The notes: generated by a model not told the origin, from the sequence alone. DNA of 64,000 nt from Bacteroidales bacterium (GCA_015061245.1 SUWY01000001.1:1-64000); one strand, 5' to 3'; counted from the first letter of the stretch, positions 736-12,260 are shown. Made by a program: numbers and translations.

Positions 736-1701
736 CTATATTTTTGTGCAACTATTTAGTTTTAATTGTGGCAACATAAAGAGCCATGTGGTTATGCAGA
801 ACGGGGTCGTTAGTGTTGGCAATCCCCATGGAACTGCAATAGTATCCATCGCGGCTTGAATATATACTGTGGTCACTACAGCCAAAACAGCATATATTGT
901 TGTTCTCCAATTTACATTATAGAATGTACATCCAACTGCGATTCCGGTTAATACGGGACTAAATCCGAATAGACCATTGGCAATGTAGTGGCTGTCACAC
1001 TCAAGAAGAATCGCTACTCCCAAGGCAATTGCAGAAGAGAGGCATGCCCAGAATGCTGCCCACCTATTGCATATCCACAGTGCAAATATAAATATAATTC
1101 CGGTTATGGCAGAGTTTATCAAAAAGACCTGACTGATGCCCTTTAACCAATATGTAGCTAATGATTTAAATGTAGTGTCAAGTTCAGAAGAGAATGGTCC
1201 TGGCAGTTCAGGTACACTTAGGTAAGGAGCAGGTAATCCATGCATTACTCTTGTCGCAAGTAATATAAATATAGTTAAGAGTACAAAAGGGAATGTATAA
1301 GCAGTAACCTTGAATTTTTTGAATACACGGTTCATTCCGACAAGAATCCAAGTGCTTGCAGCAGCAAATAGAATTAAGGTGAGCCACATTAGTAATGTTT
1401 CGCCTAAAAATGTAGGCATAGCGCATCCTACCAGAATACCATTATATCCCCATAAACCCATATCCCCATCTTCCGGGCTAAGTTTAAGTATATAGCCGGT
1501 AAGTGTTGAAACTATTACCCCGACAATTGCACCCCATGCAACAGAGGGGAAACCGCTATAGTATGAGCCCCAAAATATTCCGGCTATAATAAGAACTCCT
1601 CCGCACCAGTTCTCTTGGAACATGACTTGCGAAGCTCCGCGAAAAATGATTTTCCAAAAATCTAATGAGAAGATTTTAGGTAGTGTATATCTCTCTTTCA
1701 T
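736..1701 (-). CDS. Urea transporter (UT/SLC14 family)
   Basis: This is a polytopic inner-membrane protein of 321 residues with about ten hydrophobic segments. The UT family forms trimeric channels for passive urea entry. It carries the family's two-fold repeat signatures: FQENWCGGVLIIAG and LWGYNGILVG in the first half, and a matching FGFSPVLTGIAVG in the second. It starts 11 bases after ureD and is followed by crcB. Co-transcription with urease points to supplying urea substrate to the cytoplasmic enzyme. Length and motif order look complete. Confidence 0.9.
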   Translation of the reverse strand: MKERYTLPKIFSLDFWKIIFRGASQVMFQENWCGGVLIIAGIFWGSYYSGFPSVAWGAIVGVIVSTLTGYILKLSPEDGDMGLWGYNGILVGCAMPTFLGETLLMWLTLILFAAASTWILVGMNRVFKKFKVTAYTFPFVLLTIFILLATRVMHGLPAPYLSVPELPGPFSSELDTTFKSLATYWLKGISQVFLINSAITGIIFIFALWICNRWAAFWACLSSAIALGVAILLECDSHYIANGLFGFSPVLTGIAVGCTFYNVNWRTTIYAVLAVVTTVYIQAAMDTIAVPWGLPTLTTPFCITTWLFMLPQLKLNSCTKI

Positions 1702-1712
1702 ATTTTATGATT

Positions 1713-2627
1713 TTATCTCCAAGCAAACTCTTCAGGTAACTCTCTCCCCTTAATCTCTTTGCGAAGCGTTGAGCATATACTCCTTGTATATCTCTTTAAC
1801 TCTTCTACACTATTACCGAGTAGCTTGATATTAATTCCACAATTATTTGGTAGTATATTTACCCCCAAAGCCATCTCTTTGTTTCGGAATGGAGAGTGTT
1901 TTTTTATTATTGCATTGATATGCTCTTCAGGGGTTGCTATGATTATATCGGCAAAGTGTTTATAGTTACCCATCAATCCCATAATAGATGGATTACTCTT
2001 GTATGGTTCAATTATCATCTTTTCGCGAAAGAGCATCTTTTTTTGAGGGTCAAGAAGTTTCGATGTGATAGAGAGAAGATCATATTTGAAAATCTCTCCT
2101 CCATCATAATACTCTCGTCCGGCACAATAAATCTCAGAGTAGAAGAGTGTAGCTGTAGGGTGGATTGTTATTGTTGTCTCATTCAGGTATCGACTGTTTT
2201 TGCATGGAATGATAGGTAGCGGGATATACTCTAAATAACCATTTTCGTCAATAGTTATTGATTGATGATTTGAAGCATGGTTATATCTCATCTCTGCAAT
2301 TTTTGTTGCTGCTCCTGTTGAGATATGTGCAAAAGCATCTTTCTCAATCTTTAGCTCAATCTCATACCTATCACCATCAACGTTAGGTCCTCCCGATGAT
2401 AGAATATATACGCATGGCATTGTTGCCATCTTCTCATCGAAATATAGCTCTTGCTGCACAATAAGCGGAGCCTGCCTGCTCCATTTGGAAAGGTAGGATT
2501 TGCCACTTTGTGAATCAAGTGTAAAAGTTAGTGCAAGTTTTCCATGTTTCCCTATTGCTCCCGACTCCATTGCCGGGGGCTCTTTCATGTAGGGCTTTAG
2601 TTCTTTATGGAAGTTAGAGGTGTTCAT
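1713..2627 (-). CDS. ureD: Urease accessory protein UreD (UreH)
   Basis: UreD is the scaffold that binds apo-urease and, with UreF and UreG, passes nickel to the active site. The 304-residue protein has the family pattern: an N-terminal GKLALTF strand, [24 protein letters not shown] and [13 protein letters not shown]. The ATG overlaps the end of ureG by four bases, which suggests translational coupling. UreD is weakly conserved overall, but the motifs and position after ureG make the call secure. Confidence 0.92.
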
Positions 2628-3241
2628 TGTGGTATGGCTACAGATATAATCATATCGGTTAAATTTTCAATGCCCTCGCCCGTCATGCAGTTTGTAAAGA
2701 TAAATGGCTTGCCGGGACGCATTAGTTTTGAGTCATGTTCCATTACATTAAGGTCTGCGTGAACATAGGGAGCCAAATCGGTTTTGTTGATAACCAATAT
2801 GTCTGAATATGAGATACCGGGACCATCTTTGCGTGGAATTTTATCTCCGGCTGCAACATCGATTACGTAGATAAAGAAATCTACTAATGCGGGACTGAAT
2901 GTCAGTGTCAGATTATCGCCTCCCGATTCAATCAGTACAATGTCGCTATCGGGAAATTTCTCCTCCATCTCCTCAACAGCAGCAATATTCATTGATGGAT
3001 CTTCACGAACAGCAGTGTGTGGGCATGCACCTGTCTCAACACCAATAATTCTCTCTTCTGCTAAATAGCCCTTCAGAGTTTTTCGTACATGCTTGGCATC
3101 TTCTGTAGTTACAATATCATTTGTGATGATAAGGACCTTCAAGCCTCGCTCCAAAAGTTTGGGAGTTATAGCCTCAATTATTGCAGTCTTGCCCGAGCCT
3201 ACCGGACCGCCGATTCCAATTCTAAATGTCTGTTTCTCCAT
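2624..3241 (-). CDS. ureG: Urease accessory GTPase UreG
   Basis: UreG is a SIMIBI-class GTPase that drives nickel delivery to apo-urease. The 205-residue protein shows the P-loop [12 protein letters not shown] near residues 10-20, the metal-binding CPH motif in [11 protein letters not shown], the switch region [13 protein letters not shown] and the guanine-specificity motif NKTDLAP. It is full length for the family and lies between ureF and ureD. Confidence 0.97.
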
Positions 3242-3254
3242 ATATCAAGGTTAA

Positions 3255-3950
3255 TTAATTACCGAACATTCGTTTTGTTCCCTGTTCGTGTAGCGATGCT
3301 ATTATGTCAAGCTCCGGAGCAAAACTTTGAATGTCCTGTAAATCAAGTTCTTTAATTTTTTCGTAATCTTCCGATGCTAAAGCGCACAACTCTTTAAGAA
3401 TCTGTTGGGTGTCAATGTGCGAAACTCTAAAGATACGTAATGCAGCATTGAGAACCATGTTGATTGTACCATACTCAAGGGCTGCAAAGAGCGAGGCCTC
3501 GTCCATTCCGGCAGCGCGAAACATTATTGCTAAGCTGATATTATGGCAACCATAACACTTGCCCTCAATAATATCATTGTGCCACTGCATGACAATTCTG
3601 TTTTGGGGAAAGAGAAGTGTTGCCATTTCGGAACACTTTCTTCCCATTTTAAGGCTCATGCCCCTCGATTCATTCGATAGCTTACCTATGTAGCTAATGT
3701 TATCTGCTTCAAGAATCTCTTTATAGTTGTTCCCGTAGGCTGCCCGAAAAGCGATAAGAGCTGCCAGGTAATCACTATAAAGTGCTTGAATTACAGCTGT
3801 TCGAGCATACTGTTTTAAATCTGCTTTATCTTTGATAAGATTGTTTTCAACTGCGCTCTCTACTCCATTTGAAAAGGCGAATGAGCCAATAGGGAATGCA
3901 GAGTCGCATAGTTGTGCCAATAATATCGATTTTCTAATGGTGTTCTGCAT
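3255..3950 (-). CDS. ureF: Urease accessory protein UreF
   Basis: UreF bridges UreD and UreG in the nickel-insertion complex. The 231-residue helical protein begins with the typical LLAQLCDSAFPIGSFAFSNGVESAV block. A central conserved stretch (NESRGMSLKMGRK) and a C-terminal helical domain follow. Its start overlaps the end of ureE by 17 bases. The gene contains one copy of the CGAGGCCTCG palindrome discussed in the findings. Confidence 0.95.
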   Translation of the reverse strand: MQNTIRKSILLAQLCDSAFPIGSFAFSNGVESAVENNLIKDKADLKQYARTAVIQALYSDYLAALIAFRAAYGNNYKEILEADNISYIGKLSNESRGMSLKMGRKCSEMATLLFPQNRIVMQWHNDIIEGKCYGCHNISLAIMFRAAGMDEASLFAALEYGTINMVLNAALRIFRVSHIDTQQILKELCALASEDYEKIKELDLQDIQSFAPELDIIASLHEQGTKRMFGN

Positions 3951-4464
3951 GAAATAGGTATCTTATATCGTGTGGTGATAGGTAGGGAATAACACTCTGT
4001 CCCTCTTGAAACTCTATCTCAATATTTTGGAAATTGTGAGTGTGCATAACGCTCTCCATTACCTTTCTATCCAATGTAAGAGGAACATAAACAGTAAGCC
4101 CTTTCACGACAGCCGGCCAATGTTGGTTTCCTATTGCGTGGCCCAACTCTATGCAGGTGCGAATCAGCTCCTCTTGACTCTTTTGTGCAATTTGGTTCAG
4201 TTTAATAACCATGACCTGTGATAATTTAATATGCACTACAAGAGCTCTCTTCTCTTTCTCATTGAATAGTAGAATATCGCCCTCTGTAAGATGGGTGTGG
4301 CGGTTGAGCGATATTGCATATCGCTCACCCCCCTTGTCAATGATTATACGGCTCTTTTGTGCGCTCCATTGGTCGAACTCAAGGTAGTCAATAATTGCCC
4401 CTTGTAATTTTGCTCTCCATTCATCGGAGCAGACATTGCCTAAAATATTGTTAATTGCAATCAT
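3934..4464 (-). CDS. ureE: Urease nickel metallochaperone UreE
   Basis: UreE binds Ni(II) and hands it to UreG. An N-terminal peptide-binding domain is followed by a metal-binding domain that contains GHAIGNQHWPAV, including the conserved histidines. The protein ends in a short histidine-rich tail (FHAEHH) rather than the long His tail of some UreEs. The ORF track begins at residue MVQLK, but the internal ATG giving MIAINNILGN matches family starts and lies 11 bases after ureC, so I use it (176 residues). Confidence 0.9.
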   Translation of the reverse strand: MIAINNILGNVCSDEWRAKLQGAIIDYLEFDQWSAQKSRIIIDKGGERYAISLNRHTHLTEGDILLFNEKEKRALVVHIKLSQVMVIKLNQIAQKSQEELIRTCIELGHAIGNQHWPAVVKGLTVYVPLTLDRKVMESVMHTHNFQNIEIEFQEGQSVIPYLSPHDIRYLFHAEHH

Positions 4465-4475
4465 TATCTTTATCT

Positions 4476-6194
4476 TTAACTGAACCAATAGAGTTGTGCC
4501 ATGGCAAATTTGTCAGCGGCAGGAATCTTTACAGCCTCGCCATTTACTCTAACCTCAAAAGTCTCATTGTCAATCTCAATGCGTGGGGTTCCATTGTTTA
4601 AAACCATATCAGATTTTGTGATTTGACGGCACCCCTTCACCGCCATGACTCTCTTCATCAATCCATACTTCTCCCTAATATTGTTCTGGATTGCTGCATG
4701 CGAGACAAATGAGATAGAAGATTTCTGTAGTGCAGTGCCGAATGATCCGAACATCTTACGATAGTACATAGGTTGCGGAGTTGGTAATGAAGCATTTGGA
4801 TCTCCCATATTTGCCCAGTTAATCATACCTCCTTTAATAACCATTTTAGGTTTTGCTCCAAAAAATTGTGGTTCCCATAGTACCAAATCTGCCATTTTGC
4901 CAACCTCAACAGAGCCCAATATATGGCTTACTCCATAGGTTATAGCAGGATTTATGGTCACCTTGGCGAGATAGCGCAATACTCTAAAGTTGTCATTTCC
5001 AGGAGCATCCTCTGCCAATTTGCCCCTAACCTGTTTCATGTAATCGGCCATTTGGAATGCTCGCATAAAGTTTTCGCCAACGCGTCCCATGGCTTGTGAA
5101 TCAGATGAGATCATTGAAATGACTCCCATATCGTGTAGTACATTCTCGGCTGCCTGAGTTTCAGGACGTACGCGGCTCTCGGCAAAAGCTACATCGGATG
5201 GAATCTTTGGGTTAAGATTGTGGCATACCATAATCATATCGAACAACTCTGCTTGTGAGTTGATTCCAAATGGTAATGTTGGATTTGTCGATGATGGCAA
5301 TACATTTTCGAGCGAGGCTACCTTCATTAAGTCTGGTGCGTGTCCACCACCAGCTCCTTCGGTGTGGAAGGTGTGGATTGTTCTTCCGTCGATGGCAGCA
5401 ATGGTATCCTCGACATATCCGCTCTCGTTTAGAGTATCGGTATGGATAGCAACCTGAACATCGTGCTCTTCTGCAACCTCCATACAGCGTTTTATTGCCT
5501 GTGGAGTGCTGCCCCAATCTTCGTGAATTTTAAAACCGCACGCTCCGGCAAGCAACTCATCGTACATAGGCTCTTTGTTAGAGCAGTTACCCTTGCCAAG
5601 GAATCCAACGTTAATGGGAAGTTCCTCTACAGATTGTAACATTCTCTTTAGGTTCCATGGCCCTGAGGTAATAGTGGTGCCGTTGGTACCATCGGTTGGG
5701 CCAACACCTCCTCCGAAGAAGGTGGTTATTCCATTACTCAATGCGTGAAAGGCTTGCTGTGGAGCAATCATATGAATATGACCGTCAATTCCGGCTGCTG
5801 TAAGAATAAGGTGTTCGCCGGAAATTGCATCGGTTGAAGCTCCGGTAATAAGGTTGGGCGAAACTCCATCCATGGTGTTTGGATTTCCTGCTTTTCCAAT
5901 GCCGGCAATTCTTCCATCTTTAATTCCCACATCGGCTTTGACTACTCCCAATTTTGCATCAATGATGGTAACATTGGTAATTACCAAATCCAAAGAGCCT
6001 CCCTCTGCTCTTACGGTGTTGGCTAATCCCATGCCGTCGCGAAGTGTTTTACCTCCACCATAGACAGCTTCATCGCCCAAATATCTTAAATCCTTTTCAA
6101 TCTCAACATATAGATTGGTATCGGCTAATCGGATTTTATCTCCAACTGTCGGTCCGAAAAGATCATTATTCTGTTGTCTTGATATCTTGCTCAT
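4476..6194 (-). CDS. ureC: Urease alpha subunit UreC (catalytic)
   Basis: This is the catalytic subunit that hydrolyses urea to ammonia and carbamate. At 572 residues it is full length. Visible active-site elements are the metal-binding HIHMIAP, the lysine carbamylated to bridge the two nickels ([11 protein letters not shown]), the histidines in IHTDTLNE and [14 protein letters not shown], and the mobile flap [11 protein letters not shown] with its cysteine and histidine. The start overlaps the end of ureB by 29 bases. Nothing suggests inactivation. Confidence 0.98.
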
Positions 6195-6600
6195 ACTCTT
6201 CGTTTTTGAATCCGTATTTTTTCATTTTCTCAATTGCCTTTACTCTCTTTGGCAGGAAAAACGGGGCATCTTCAGTGCCTGTATAACCCTCTACCAAACC
6301 ATTGAATCCCGTTATATATTGCTTCCCTCCAAAGGGAACAAGCTCAACGCTCTTCTCTTGACCCGGTTCAAACCTGATGGCTGTGGTTGCAGGGATATTC
6401 AAATGATATCCGTAGGCTGCAGCACGGTTGAACTGCAAATATCTATTCACCTCGAAAAAGTGAAAATGGGAGCCGATTTGAATAGGACGGTTGCCACAAT
6501 TCTTAACCTTTATAGTTATCACCTTGCGTCCGACATTGTATTCAAGATCATCTTTGGCTAGTAGAACTCCTCCAATTGGTACATCTATCTTATCGCTCAT
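6166..6600 (-). CDS. ureB: Urease beta subunit UreB
   Basis: UreB is a structural subunit of the urease (alpha-beta-gamma)3 assembly. Conserved stretches are [36 protein letters not shown] and [17 protein letters not shown]. At 144 residues it is longer than the roughly 100-residue separate UreBs. The extra is a charged lysine/glutamate-rich tail (about residues 112-144) whose coding sequence overlaps the first 29 bases of ureC. Such tails occur in some other UreBs; its role here is unknown. Confidence 0.96.
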
Positions 6601-6608
6601 ATCTCCTA

Positions 6609-6911
6609 TTATTTTATTGGTTTGTGAATACTGACAAGACGGCTGCCATCGGTAAATACAGCTTCAATCTGAATCAATGATATCATATCCGCCACTCCAT
6701 CCATAACATCTGCTTTGGTAAGGAGGTTTGAGGCGAGGCTCATTACCTGCTCCAAGGTTTTACCTTCGCGAGCAGCCTCGAGAGCCATATAACTGATATA
6801 TGCAACAGCCTCGGGGTGGTTTAATTTCAACCCTTTTGCTTTGCGCCTCTCTGCTATTTGTCCCATGGATATCAATAGCAGTTTGTCAATCTCTTTTGGT
6901 GTTAAATGCAT
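6609..6911 (-). CDS. ureA: Urease gamma subunit UreA
   Basis: The 100-residue gamma subunit is full length and is the first gene of the urease operon. It begins with [13 protein letters not shown] and carries the conserved [14 protein letters not shown] and [11 protein letters not shown] blocks. The nine-base gap to ureB and the tight packing downstream indicate one transcript running from here to crcB. The promoter should lie in the 127-base divergent gap shared with the TonB receptor gene. Confidence 0.97.
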
Positions 6912-7038
6912 AGTAAGTTAATTTTGAGTTTCATAAATGGTTGTTTTCTGAGCCATATATACGCTTCGTAGTCCAAAAGGTTATTATAACATTCACCCTC
7001 CACTTTGCGTAATAGAGGGAAAATTGAGGTGATTTTTT
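6912..7038. promoter_or_regulatory. Divergent promoter region between urease and metal-uptake operons
   Basis: This 127-base gap must hold the promoters of both operons. It contains an 11-base palindrome GTTATTATAAC (6980-6990) and an inverted repeat CCCTC...GAGGG (6996-7019) around CACTTTGC, which is a weak match to a -7 box for the plus-strand operon. I cannot assign a regulator. A shared nickel- or iron-responsive operator is inferred from position only. Confidence 0.45.
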
Positions 7039-9081
7039 ATGGAACAAAGGAGAAAACAAACATTGATACTCCTCTTTTTACTATGTGCGTATAGTGTTCA
7101 TGCACAGGAAAGTGAAGTTGATACTTCGTTATATGTGGGCGAGGTTTTGATCTTGAAGAGTGGTACTTCTATTGAGGAGTCGAGAAGTTCGGGAATTGTA
7201 AATGTAATTTCATCAGAGCTTCTCTCTAAATTGCCGTTACAGAGTGTTGATGAGGCGTTGACAATGTTGCCCGGAGTCAATTCCAACAGAACATCGGGCT
7301 TGTCTCAAATGGTAACAACAGTAAGTTTGCGAGGTTTATCGGGCGATGAACAGGGAAGGACATTGGTTCTTATGGATGGAGTTCCCATCAATACATCGGA
7401 CAACGGCACTGTAAACTGGAACTCTATTAATCCTGCAAATGTTGCAAAGATAGAGCTGCTTAAAGGGGCAGCATCGGCACTTTATGGCGCAAATGCAATA
7501 GGCGGAGTTATAAATATAGTGACCAAAAAGGCCTCCTCGCCCCTTGCAATAATGGGGAGCATGGAGTATGGAACTTTAAATACGTGGCGTTCAAACCTTT
7601 CATTGTCAAGTAGATTAAGTGATAAGGTGTCGTTCTTTTTAGGTGGAAACTACTCCAAATCCGATGGATATATCAATATTCCTGACTCTTTAATAACTCA
7701 GTATACCTATCCGACATATGTGAGTGAATATGGAGTAAATTCAAAGCTACTCTATTCTCCTACAAAGCATTGGGAGTTAGATCTGTCATATTCAATGTAT
7801 CGAGACAGGCGTGGGGAGGGTGAGAAGATTCTTGCCGAGCGTGGTGAGTATAGACGTTTTGATAATGACAGAGTGCAATTTTCGGCACGAAGAGTAGGCA
7901 ATGACTTTTGGCGAATGTCAATAACAGGATACTTTCAACAGGAACGCTATTTTAAACTTGACGAAAGGGTGAATGGTGGAGTGTATCAACGATTTGATGT
8001 TCATGCTAAGCGCGAAGATCTGGGAATAATCTTTAATGGATCGTTGCAGTTTCGAGATAATCGTCTCTCATTTGGGGCGGAACTACGTGGAGGAGCAATA
8101 GATGGTGGTGATTACTATAAAACCTCGCCCGATACAGTAAGAAATAGGGGAGAGTTGGATATATATTCGCTCTATATCAGAGATGAGCAGACACTATTTA
8201 AAGATAAGTTGTGGATGCAAGTAGCTCTGCGTTACGATTTTGCTCAGTTTCATGATGGTCTGTTTCAGGCAAACGGAGAGTCAGTTGGCGCTTTTTCAAA
8301 CTATAACGGAGAGTTGGCATTGAAGGAGTGGGGTAAAATATCGCCCAATGTATCAATTAGATATACTCCATCTGCCAAGCTTACGGCCTATCTTACCTAT
8401 GGGCGAGGTTTCAGGGCATCGATACTCGATGATATGTGTCGTTCCGGGTGGATGTGGATAGGTCCAAAAATAGCCAATCCCGAACTTGGTCCTGAGTATG
8501 TTGACAATTTCGAATTTGGAACAACAATGAGGTTAGGCAGGTTTATCTTTGACAAGAGCCTCTATTATGGGGTTGGTCATGACTTTCTCTACTATGTACC
8601 CACCGGAGAGAAACTCTATGGAAAGCGCGATATCTTTATCAGAAAAAACATCTCAAAGGTTGAGTTTTATGGAGGCGAGAGTGCAATAACCTACGACAAT
8701 AGAAACGGTCTCTATATGAATTTGAACTACTCAATGGGAATTTCTAAGATTGTCGATGCCAATGGCAATGAAACTTTAAAAGGAAAATACCTGACATACG
8801 CACCTAAATTTATGGTAAAGTTTTATGCTTTATGGAGTGGAAGAGTGGGCGAGGCCTCGCTTAAAACAACCTATAAATCAAAACAATATGTAACCGAGGA
8901 TAATTCAGACTATATGGATGGATTTGTTATGTGTGATTTGGCAGTAGGTAAATGGTTTTGGAATAGAACCGTAGGTATACGTGGAGAGGTTCTTAATCTC
9001 TTTGATAGACGTGAGACCAATTCGCCAAACTACTTATCGCCTGGAAGATTGTTTAACTTAAAGATAATGTTGAATTTATGA
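7039..9081 (+). CDS. TonB-dependent outer-membrane receptor, probably for nickel chelates
   Basis: The 680-residue protein has a signal peptide ending near VHAQES. A plug domain follows (about residues 45-160, with MLPGVNSNRTSG, LVLMDGVPIN and AIGGVINIVTKK), then a 22-strand-type beta barrel ending in the aromatic/hydrophobic strand RLFNLKIMLNL. There is no N-terminal carboxypeptidase-like domain and no SusD partner, so it is a siderophore/metal-type receptor, not a glycan one. It is divergent from urease and overlaps the substrate-binding protein gene (ATGA). Nickel as substrate is inferred from context; haem, iron or cobalamin cannot be excluded. Confidence 0.85.
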   Translation: MEQRRKQTLILLFLLCAYSVHAQESEVDTSLYVGEVLILKSGTSIEESRSSGIVNVISSELLSKLPLQSVDEALTMLPGVNSNRTSGLSQMVTTVSLRGLSGDEQGRTLVLMDGVPINTSDNGTVNWNSINPANVAKIELLKGAASALYGANAIGGVINIVTKKASSPLAIMGSMEYGTLNTWRSNLSLSSRLSDKVSFFLGGNYSKSDGYINIPDSLITQYTYPTYVSEYGVNSKLLYSPTKHWELDLSYSMYRDRRGEGEKILAERGEYRRFDNDRVQFSARRVGNDFWRMSITGYFQQERYFKLDERVNGGVYQRFDVHAKREDLGIIFNGSLQFRDNRLSFGAELRGGAIDGGDYYKTSPDTVRNRGELDIYSLYIRDEQTLFKDKLWMQVALRYDFAQFHDGLFQANGESVGAFSNYNGELALKEWGKISPNVSIRYTPSAKLTAYLTYGRGFRASILDDMCRSGWMWIGPKIANPELGPEYVDNFEFGTTMRLGRFIFDKSLYYGVGHDFLYYVPTGEKLYGKRDIFIRKNISKVEFYGGESAITYDNRNGLYMNLNYSMGISKIVDANGNETLKGKYLTYAPKFMVKFYALWSGRVGEASLKTTYKSKQYVTEDNSDYMDGFVMCDLAVGKWFWNRTVGIRGEVLNLFDRRETNSPNYLSPGRLFNLKIMLNL

Positions 9082-10163
9082 AAAATGTATTTAAGGCAAT
9101 AATAAAGATTCTATTGGTAATCTTTGTTACGATAATGCTTTTGATATTGATCATGTTGGTTAGAAGTGAGTATAGAACCATTGAATCAGAGGGTGTAGAG
9201 GTGACCGATATGTTAGGCAGAAGTGTAATAGTACCCGAGCACGTTGATTCAATAGTCTGCCTTAAAGCTTCGGCCATCAGATTGGTATGCTATGCAGGTG
9301 GGGCTGATATGATTTGTGGAGTAGAGGAGTGCGAGTTGAGAGGTAATCCCTATACACATATTTACGCGAATCCTAAATTAAAAGAGAGACGCGTAATTGG
9401 CCCCATGATGGGAGGAGATGCGGAGTTGATTCTCTCTGTGTCGCCCGATTTGATATTTACAACGTGTAGTACTGTCAATGAGGCAGATATGTTACAAAGA
9501 AGATGTGGAGTTCCGGTAATAGCCTTGGAGTACGGTAACTTGGCTTCTCGGCGTGATGAATTTTACTCCTCATTAAAATTAATATCAAATGTTTTGGGTA
9601 CAGAGAGTAGGGTGGATTCCCTTATTGGGTACATCGATGGTCAAATTGGTGAGTTGGATCGAAGGTCGGAAAGAGAGTTAAAGCATGAGCCCTCGCCTGT
9701 AGTATATGTATGTGGAATATCGTATAAAGGGAAGAGGGGGTTGGATTCAACCGATCCCAATTATGCGGCACTCCAATTCATAAATGGAACAAATGCTGCG
9801 GCCGGGGTGGATAGTAAATTGGTATCGGAGATAACGGGAACCACAATATCGTTAGAGCAACTGCTTCTTTGGAATCCCGACATTCTGTTTGTGGATCACG
9901 ATGGCTTTAATTTGGTTATGAGTGATTTAGAACGCTTGAATATAGATAGGAACAAGCTCTATCTGATATGGCCGTACAATAATATTCACTCAAATTTCGA
10001 GGTAATGCTTTTGAATTCATGGTTTATGGGAAAGGTACTCTATCCGGAGCAATTCGCAGACATTGATATTGCTGCCAAGCGTGATGAGATAATGTATCAA
10101 TTCTTGCGCTCTGATATAGGAGACTCTCTTGTTGCAACGTGGGGAGAGTATCGGAAAATTTGA
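9078..10163 (+). CDS. FecB/BtuF-type ABC transporter substrate-binding protein
   Basis: The 361-residue protein is anchored by one N-terminal membrane helix (about residues 7-27) with no clear lipobox. A class III periplasmic-binding fold follows: VTDMLGRSVIVPEHVDSIVCL, then the SPDLIFTTC and NPDILFVDHDG lobes. The stretch GISYKGKRGLDSTDPNY resembles FecB-like proteins of metal importers. Its ATG overlaps the receptor stop by four bases. It should collect the ligand passed by the TonB receptor and hand it to the permease. The ligand is not readable from sequence. Confidence 0.85.
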   Translation: MKNVFKAIIKILLVIFVTIMLLILIMLVRSEYRTIESEGVEVTDMLGRSVIVPEHVDSIVCLKASAIRLVCYAGGADMICGVEECELRGNPYTHIYANPKLKERRVIGPMMGGDAELILSVSPDLIFTTCSTVNEADMLQRRCGVPVIALEYGNLASRRDEFYSSLKLISNVLGTESRVDSLIGYIDGQIGELDRRSERELKHEPSPVVYVCGISYKGKRGLDSTDPNYAALQFINGTNAAAGVDSKLVSEITGTTISLEQLLLWNPDILFVDHDGFNLVMSDLERLNIDRNKLYLIWPYNNIHSNFEVMLLNSWFMGKVLYPEQFADIDIAAKRDEIMYQFLRSDIGDSLVATWGEYRKI

Positions 10164-10179
10164 AAAGCAATAGGGAACT

Positions 10180-11169
10180 ATGAATATAATTGTTACGAAA
10201 TATATCTCTTTACAAAGGAGAAATAGAGTAATTATACTCTCTGTTGCACTATTGGGAATTGTTTTGTCGTTACTCTCTGTCTCAATAGGTCTGAAAAAAT
10301 TTATAGTTGCAGACACTGTAATGATGGAATCGATACTCTCGCTTAGGGGAGCCAGGGTTGCCTCTGCGTTTATCTCAGGAGCAATTCTCTCATTGAGTGG
10401 AGTGGTGATGCAGACACTATTGCGTAACCCTTTGGCATCGCCATATACTTTAGGTATCTCCAATGCTGCAGCATTCGGAGCGGCTATAGGGATTCTCTTT
10501 TTTAGCAATTCAGTAATTCCCGGAGTGACAGTTTTGACTGCATTTATCGGAACTCTTTTTGGATTGGGATTGATTCTGTTGATTTCAGGAATTAAGAGTA
10601 GTGGAGTTGAGACTGTAATTTTAGCTGGAGTTGTAATAAATTCCCTCTTCTCTGCGGGAATTGCAATAATGCAATATGTTGCAGATTCTGCACAACTTGC
10701 AACAATTGTTTTTTGGACCTTTGGAGATTTGGGTAAAGGTGATTGGATGGCAGTTTTGTTACTCTTTATAATATCACTCGCTGCCGGTTTTTACCTCTAC
10801 CGCAAGCGTTGGGATTATAAGGCATTGGAGCTTGGCGATGATTATGCCAGGAGTGTAGGAGTGCAACCGGTAAAGATTCGCTTAACAGGTTTAATTGTAG
10901 CCTCGCTTATGACGGCAGTAGCAGTCTCTATATTCGGAGTGATTGCTTTTGTCGGATTGGCGGTTCCGCACCTCTTGCGACGTATGGTTGGGGCAGACTT
11001 AAATTACCTTATTCCTGCCTCTCTCATTTTTGGCGGAGCCTTTATGGTGGTATGTGATATGGTATCCAAACTCCTCTTTGCCCCTATTATTATTCCAATA
11101 GGGATAATAACATCGATTATAGGAGTGCCACTATTTATCATTGTTTTGTATAAATATTATAGAAGATAG
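10180..11169 (+). CDS. FecCD-family ABC transporter permease
   Basis: The 329-residue integral membrane protein has about nine to ten hydrophobic helices. FecCD/BtuC marks are RGARVASAFISGAILSLSGVVMQTLLRNPLASPYTLGIS, the cytoplasmic GVQPVKIRL segment and GVIAFVGLAVPHLLRRMVG, which contacts the ATPase. It lies between the binding protein and the ATPase with very short gaps and would form a homodimer in the inner membrane. Confidence 0.92.
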   Translation: MNIIVTKYISLQRRNRVIILSVALLGIVLSLLSVSIGLKKFIVADTVMMESILSLRGARVASAFISGAILSLSGVVMQTLLRNPLASPYTLGISNAAAFGAAIGILFFSNSVIPGVTVLTAFIGTLFGLGLILLISGIKSSGVETVILAGVVINSLFSAGIAIMQYVADSAQLATIVFWTFGDLGKGDWMAVLLLFIISLAAGFYLYRKRWDYKALELGDDYARSVGVQPVKIRLTGLIVASLMTAVAVSIFGVIAFVGLAVPHLLRRMVGADLNYLIPASLIFGGAFMVVCDMVSKLLFAPIIIPIGIITSIIGVPLFIIVLYKYYRR

Positions 11170-11170
11170 T

Positions 11171-11935
11171 ATGGAGTTGATACTCAAAAATATATCGTAT
11201 AGTTACGGAGCATTCTCTGCTTTGAGGTCAATCTCGGCTTCGTTTAGCTCCGGTGATATGGTAGCTCTTATAGGTCAAAATGGTTCGGGGAAGAGCACCC
11301 TTCTAAAGTGTATAAATAGAGTTGTTGATCCAAGCAGAGGTGATGTTTTTTTAGACTCACTCTCCGTAAAAGAGCTCCCAATCAATAGAGTTGCCGAGGT
11401 AATGGCATACGTGCCTCAATATGCGGAACAAATTCGTTTCTCTACCGTATTTGATATGGTACTTCTTGGACGTAAACCCTATATATCAGGAGCTCCCACA
11501 AAGCAGGATTATGCAAAAGTGGCAAAATCCATTACTCAATTAGGGCTGCAGGAGTTGGCCATGCGTAGGGTAGATACTTTGAGTGGAGGTGAACGTCAAA
11601 GGGTTATGATTGCCAGGGCTGTTGCCCAAGAGCCTAAAATAATTCTGCTCGATGAACCGATAGCAAATCTGGATATTAAACAGCAGTTTGCAGTTATGAA
11701 ATTGTTGCAGGAGTTGGCTTTAGACGGTATAATTGTTATTGTGGCAATTCATGACATAGCTTTAGCCTCCCGATTTTGTAACAGAGCTGTTATGTTGAAA
11801 CATGGAACGCTCTTTGCAAGTGGAGGAAGAGAGGTATATAACAGCGATACTATAAACAGATTATTTGATATAGAGGTAGATAACTATGGATCAGATTACT
11901 TTGACACCCGTTGGCTATGTGGTCAACAGTTGTAA
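11171..11935 (+). CDS. FecE-type ABC transporter ATP-binding protein
   Basis: The ATPase of the importer shows Walker A GQNGSGKST, a Q-loop in YVPQYAEQ, signature LSGGERQRVMIARA, Walker B IILLDEP and the switch histidine in AIHDIALA. The track starts ten codons early inside the permease gene; the ATG right after the permease stop (MELILKNIS) is preferred and gives 254 residues. Its last 50 bases overlap the start of the TrmO-like gene in another frame. Confidence 0.93.
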   Translation: MELILKNISYSYGAFSALRSISASFSSGDMVALIGQNGSGKSTLLKCINRVVDPSRGDVFLDSLSVKELPINRVAEVMAYVPQYAEQIRFSTVFDMVLLGRKPYISGAPTKQDYAKVAKSITQLGLQELAMRRVDTLSGGERQRVMIARAVAQEPKIILLDEPIANLDIKQQFAVMKLLQELALDGIIVIVAIHDIALASRFCNRAVMLKHGTLFASGGREVYNSDTINRLFDIEVDNYGSDYFDTRWLCGQQL

Positions 11936-12260
11936 TATTTCGACACTTCCTGAGAATATCTCCTGTTTGGAGTCGATAATTGTCATTTTGCCGGAATATA
12001 CCGATGCTCTATACAAAATAGAGCAGTGTTCAACTATCGACGTGCTTTTCTATATGCACAAAAAGGAGAGGGTTAGTTTAATATCGCAAACTCGTTATGG
12101 CGAGGAGAGAGGTGTTTTTGCTTCGCGCTCTCCATGGCGACCCAATGGTATAGGTGTTACCCGGGTAAAACTGTTGAAAGTTGAGGATAATCAACTCTTT
12201 GTGGCGGGTTTGGATGCTTTGAATGGTTCGCCTGTTTTGGATATTAAATGCGGATTTTAA
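11886..12260 (+). CDS. Short TrmO/TsaA-like methyltransferase-family protein
   Basis: The 124 residues match the TsaA-like beta-barrel domain of TrmO, which uses SAM to methylate t6A37 of tRNA(Thr). Visible motifs are LTPVGYV at the start, FYMHKKERV, the signature RGVFASRSPWRPNGIGVTRVKLL, and LDALNGSPVLDIK at the end. The chain stops four residues after DIK, so the last part of the domain and the C-terminal domain of enterobacterial TrmO are absent. It starts 50 bases inside the ATPase gene and ends the metal-uptake operon. A role in tRNA modification is the family default. A role linked to metal or metallophore chemistry is a speculation from context. Confidence 0.75.
   Translation: MDQITLTPVGYVVNSCNISTLPENISCLESIIVILPEYTDALYKIEQCSTIDVLFYMHKKERVSLISQTRYGEERGVFASRSPWRPNGIGVTRVKLLKVEDNQLFVAGLDALNGSPVLDIKCGF

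Follow-up and report, generated by a model that had tools for sequence, protein, structure and literature searches.

What does a transport operon that faces urease genes import, and for which enzyme? The question is raised by a stretch of DNA of 64,000 nucleotides from a Bacteroidales bacterium (GCA_015061245.1 SUWY01000001.1:1-64000; this whole stretch is called the window below). It was originally predicted that a TonB-dependent transporter (TBDT) without SusD and FecB-, FecC- and FecE-like genes are packed into one operon, which shares a 127-base divergent region with ureA and brings nickel to urease. Five packed genes are indeed found on the plus strand at 7039-12260:

6912..7038, no strand: divergent intergenic region of 127 bases, from the ureA start to the TBDT start, with the promoters of both operons
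7039..9081, plus strand: TonB-dependent outer-membrane receptor, candidate for nickel or a nickel chelate (PF07715 plug, 1e-26; PF00593 barrel, 5e-31)
9078..10163, plus strand: periplasmic binding protein, Peripla_BP_2 (PF01497)
10180..11169, plus strand: FecCD-type inner-membrane permease (PF01032, 2.8e-76)
11171..11935, plus strand: ABC ATPase, FecE-like (PF00005, 3e-32)
11886..12260, plus strand: TsaA/TrmO_N protein, 124 aa (PF01980, 1e-25; TIGR00104, 98.4 bits against a cut-off of 93.25)

Domain matches and tight packing agree with the predicted operon. The TBDT and binding protein genes overlap by 4 bases, the ATPase and TsaA genes by 50 bases; the ORF list starts the ATPase at a TTG (11141), the ATG at 11171 being the likely start. 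With ureA starting at 6911 on the minus strand, the divergent region measures exactly 127 bases, as described. The four genes named at the outset are confirmed, but the fifth, TsaA/TrmO-like gene had been omitted. The combination of PF01497, PF01032 and an ABC ATPase in one operon corresponds to a FecBCD-type importer with a class III binding protein. The receptor, with its plug and barrel, is of the non-SusCD type: it scores 86.9 with the SusC/RagA model (cut-off 368), and no SusD gene adjoins it in the window. None of the NCBIfam equivalog models reached its own cut-off for this receptor. Its motif GFRASILDDxCRSGWMWxGPKIANPxLGPE is invariant in the window's family, and its AlphaFold model is poor (mean pLDDT 64).

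Across the 127-base gap, the minus strand carries ureA-B-C-E-F-G-D, followed by genes for a UT-family urea transporter and a CrcB-like protein:

6609..6911, minus strand: ureA, urease gamma (NF009712 equivalog, over cut-off)
6166..6600, minus strand: ureB, urease beta (TIGR00192, over cut-off)
4476..6194, minus strand: ureC, urease alpha (NF009834 equivalog, 1050.6 bits, cut-off 1001)
3934..4488, minus strand: ureE, accessory, listed from TTG (position conserved in relatives)
3255..3950, minus strand: ureF, accessory (position conserved in relatives)
2624..3241, minus strand: ureG, accessory GTPase (position conserved in relatives)
1713..2627, minus strand: ureD, accessory (PF01774, 5e-39)
736..1701, minus strand: UT-family urea transporter (PF03253, 6e-89)

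The CrcB-like fluoride exporter gene is found at the urease operons of three genomes (350-751 in the window, L022 and L094); urease is inhibited by fluoride. Matches to the Rfam 5' ureB sRNA (RF02514) lie antisense to the ureC start in the window (5744-6041, plus strand) and in L026, L029 and L030. What they reflect is most likely the conservation of the ureC reading frame, not an sRNA.

The neighbourhood was followed in 60 genomes of the window's family, whose named members are Odoribacter, Sanguibacteroides and 'Marinifilaceae bacterium'. The binding protein is present in 10 of them and UreC in 9; all nine UreC-positive genomes have the binding protein, which is absent from 50 of the 51 UreC-negative ones. 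The tenth carrier, UreC-negative, is a 67% complete genome with the operon on a 5 kb contig. Fisher's test gives 7e-10 for this co-occurrence, the points being non-independent through linkage and kinship. Eight family genomes, the window included, have the operon and ureA directly back to back. The order TBDT, binding protein, FecCD, ATPase, TsaA, pointing away from ureA, is kept in seven further genomes at TBDT identities of about 47-65%, and the divergence from urease is conserved over four genera. The arrangement is not due to chance: gene order has been retained even though protein identity has fallen to roughly one half. A ninth genome (G017) has an insertion between ureA and the operon, composed of a second TBDT gene, a nucleoside-hydrolase-FmdE fusion gene and a 123-residue ORF. 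Although the urease genes of G048 fall on two contigs, its ureA still diverges from the TBDT gene; in G052, the contig ends.

CbiM/NikM, NicO, NikR and [NiFe]-hydrogenase were not detected over Pfam cut-offs in the ten family carriers. Urease is therefore the only nickel enzyme found there and, for the importer families tested, this operon is left as the sole candidate for nickel import. The conserved divergence from urease within the family supports nickel as the predicted substrate. The absence of NikR from the family carriers, and of a NikR box, counts against it: the window genome (83.5% complete) has no NikR, and neither a NikR-type operator nor an Rfam riboswitch was found in 6912-7038. 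A motif, ACACGAGAAyTACGCT...AAGTTGTT(T/A)CA, is found within the divergent region upstream of ureA in L025, L026 and L029; it is weaker in the other family loci, including the window, and is possibly a ureA promoter or regulator site.

How far does the link with urease extend? With a profile built from ten family binding proteins, 393 Bacteroidales genomes were surveyed, of which 23 are carriers, 3 from the window's family and 20 from other families; all 20 were read at the locus. Co-occurrence with urease, expected from the original prediction, holds in the family but is weak across the order (3 of 23 carriers, p 0.03). UreC is absent from all 20 carriers of other families, and the binding protein from all ten UreC-positive genomes outside the family, the latter counting against nickel. 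Taken by itself, the order-level figure would mislead: outside the family, urease-positive genomes rely on different importers or have none in sight of urease. At least four of them carry such a gene close to urease (CbiM/NikM-type in three loci and, by eye, UreH-like in another). Urease as the client stands for the window's family; the system as a whole would be a general nickel-supply operon rather than a urease-specific one.

In these other families, nikR adjoins the operon in 12 of the 20 carriers, from 8 families, and NikR scores over curated cut-offs in both nikR-linked loci checked. Upstream of nikR in L081 are hypD, hypE, hypA and hypB. In 9 of 11 nikR promoters, a sequence with no more than 3 mismatches to the box GTGTTAC-N13/14-GTAACAC, published as the NikR consensus for deltaproteobacteria and used here for scoring (PMC545781), lies some 30 bases ahead of nikR; for each, between 0 and 7 of 500 shuffles did as well. 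The box of L081 is a variant, and the half-sites of L082 apparently lie in opposite orientation. These loci thus have the features of NikR-regulated uptake. Furthermore, the [NiFe]-hydrogenase large subunit (Pfam) is found in 18 of the 20 carriers, all urease-negative, versus 120 of 368 other genomes outside the family (Fisher, 4e-7). NikR adjacency, NikR-type operators and hydrogenase co-occurrence support nickel as the substrate; the 8 of 20 loci without nikR, several of them at contig ends, and the two carriers with neither urease nor detected hydrogenase (G201 and G393) speak against it. The original prediction had named, as an outcome that would go against it, orthologous operons mainly in urease-negative genomes beside haem or cobalamin genes. 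The orthologues do lie mainly in urease-negative genomes, but their neighbours are nikR and hyp genes instead.

In a tree of the binding proteins, those of the window's family group with L074 (G179, a hydrogenase-positive genome of another family) and with L077 (G395), which has a long branch; the NikR-linked set lies separately. A contig-collection search with the binding-protein alignment returned 7 loci, all within the window's family. When 297 genomes sampled across the phylum were surveyed, the window genome and one other proved to be carriers, which suggests that the system has its centre in Bacteroidales. Where a NikR-linked operon has no TBDT gene of its own, a small membrane protein with a GPDHYLPF motif (PF13386) that looks UreH-like is encoded after it (L088 6210-6908, L090 13542-14240, L091 12436-13134).

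The binding protein itself was compared with solved structures. Its nearest relative is TM0189 of Thermotoga maritima (PDB 2etv; E 9.5e-53, TM-score about 0.8), labelled putative iron(III). To our knowledge, no ligand of TM0189 has been established, and we take the label to be a genomics-era guess rather than a measured ligand. The next structural relatives are YiuA and HI1472; the latter (3psa), labelled molybdate, is the second sequence match (E 3e-11). At 90% of 29 orthologues, no His or Met is conserved, nor any Cys beyond the lipobox; this lack counts against nickel, as do the iron and molybdate labels of the nearest structures. A His-based nickel site was considered and rejected: no family member deviates at H94 or H304, yet across the order the conservation of both drops under 90%. 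Since this pattern suits a chelate more than a bare ion, the protein likely recognises a chelate. In the window's genus, the N-terminal part of the binding protein (9078-9170 in the window) lacks the lipobox Cys of other family members and has instead a long hydrophobic helix that looks like a membrane anchor.

Other substrates have to be weighed against nickel. Each component family is known best for the uptake of iron-siderophores, the solved structure nearest to the binding protein carries an iron(III) label, and YiuA was solved with iron. A siderophore or ferric-chelate importer adjoining urease by accident is nevertheless very unlikely: nikR adjacency in 8 families together with NikR-type operators, co-occurrence with nickel enzymes and a divergence from urease conserved over four genera all argue against it, and the TM0189 label is presumably a guess. 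Molybdate or tungstate import, suggested by the FmdE name, which derives from a molybdenum enzyme operon, and by the relation to HI1472 (MolA), is an extremely remote prospect: the match to HI1472 is far weaker than that to 2etv, the context is one of nikR with urease or hydrogenase, and only 13 of 208 FmdE genes have formylmethanofuran dehydrogenase neighbours while most adjoin metal transporter genes (PMC2954224).

A cobalt or cobalamin importer of the BtuB-BtuFCD type would fit the receptor plug region, which resembles BtuB, and the best NCBIfam model of the permease, BtuC, although at 169 bits it is far below the cut-off of 334; the Helicobacter NiuBDE system also carries cobalt (PMC5140060). 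However, scans of the operon in the window and at 15 related loci revealed no riboswitch, of the cobalamin type or otherwise, no B12 genes were recognised beside it in the loci read, BtuB and BtuC stay below equivalog level, and the context is one of NikR rather than riboswitches. These observations make cobalt or cobalamin highly improbable. Nickel, judged from genomic context alone, is very probably the substrate.

What could the fifth gene contribute to nickel import? It is a TsaA-FmdE fusion in the other genera of the window's family and, where present and contig-intact, in other families. The window's genus has lost the FmdE half: its two sequenced members have a protein of TsaA alone (124 aa in one, 127 aa in the other), and a search of the whole window genome turned up no FmdE domain. 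This lineage, at least, can therefore do without the FmdE half. Across 20 fusions, the FmdE ligands H, H, C and C (the HGHxC motif and a Cys further on) reach at least 90% conservation. In one solved FmdE core, these ligands hold a mixture of Zn and Ni, and fusion to TsaA (UPF0066) is an already noted architecture (PMC2954224). The window protein passes the TIGR00104 TrmO equivalog cut-off, and its TsaA half may act in tRNA modification as an m6t6A methyltransferase (TrmO); it has the N-domain only, and its relatives are FmdE fusions within a transport operon. In two families, a second TBDT gene and an inosine-uridine nucleoside hydrolase-FmdE fusion gene (484 aa) lie next to the operon (L025 10336-13687; L075 5005-8337). 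These loci suggest that FmdE recurs as a module wherever nickel genes cluster, and the nucleoside hydrolase part hints at a nucleoside-like chelate.

Taken together, the operon is in all likelihood a two-membrane nickel importer. Transport would be inward: the TonB-dependent receptor would carry nickel across the outer membrane, probably as a small chelate, and the binding protein would hand it to the FecCD2-ATPase2 importer. In the cytosol, the TsaA(-FmdE) protein might handle the metal or the chelate. Imported nickel would serve urease in the window's family; in other Bacteroidales families, the operon would be under NikR and most likely supply [NiFe]-hydrogenase. A more specific idea, rather unlikely as it stands, is a nickel-chelate strategy in which receptor and binding protein take up nickel on an organic chelator, and TsaA-FmdE, which couples a SAM-binding TrmO-like domain with a Ni/Zn site, alters the chelate or strips it off in the cytosol before delivery to UreE or to HypA/HypB.

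Helicobacter mustelae reportedly has NikH and an ABC nickel/cobalt system (Stoof et al. 2010, as cited in PMC5140060); this too combines a TBDT and an ABC nickel importer in a urease-positive host, which is epsilonproteobacterial. In Helicobacter pylori, FrpB4, TonB2 and NiuBDE likewise form a TBDT and ABC importer route feeding urease (PMC5140060, PMC13367063); here, however, the receptor gene shares a single operon with the ABC genes, back to back with urease and with TsaA(-FmdE) as an additional member, and the family carriers have no NikR. CeuE/NiuB (4ls3) shares the fold class, being matched by Foldseek at rank 32-36, but a phmmer search of the PDB gave no sequence match to CeuE/NiuB (4ino, 4ls3) up to E 10. 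The proposed likeness to NiuBDE thus fails as orthology: the system would work like the FrpB4/NiuBDE kind of two-membrane route and, by sequence, is not a NiuBDE family member. In Caldithrix abyssi, a predicted NikR regulon also has a TBDT and a nickel importer, but the inner-membrane importer is ECF-type NikMNQO instead of FecBCD-type (PMC5317091). CbiM/NikMNQO genes beside urease in Bacteroidales L096, L097 and L098 again link a nickel importer to urease; that importer is non-homologous, and these genomes lack the present operon. FmdE core proteins (PF02663, e.g. 2glz) share the HGHxC + C site with Zn/Ni in the crystal, the UPF0066 fusion and the linkage to transporters; in the accessible part of their description, they are not tied to NikR, urease or a TBDT operon, and the window copy is without the FmdE part (PMC2954224).

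No paper describing this operon was found in the literature searched, which was mostly outside subscription journals. The tie of TsaA-FmdE to nickel import is its newest element, beside the difference in clients, hydrogenase with NikR versus urease without NikR. The operon gives TsaA-FmdE fusions, noted in 2010 near metal transporters without a function, a testable cellular context. It is a candidate for the nickel supply of urease in urease-positive Odoribacter-type gut bacteria, in which neither CbiM/NikM nor NicO scored over its cut-off, and the same operon is a candidate nickel route for hydrogenase-bearing Bacteroidales.
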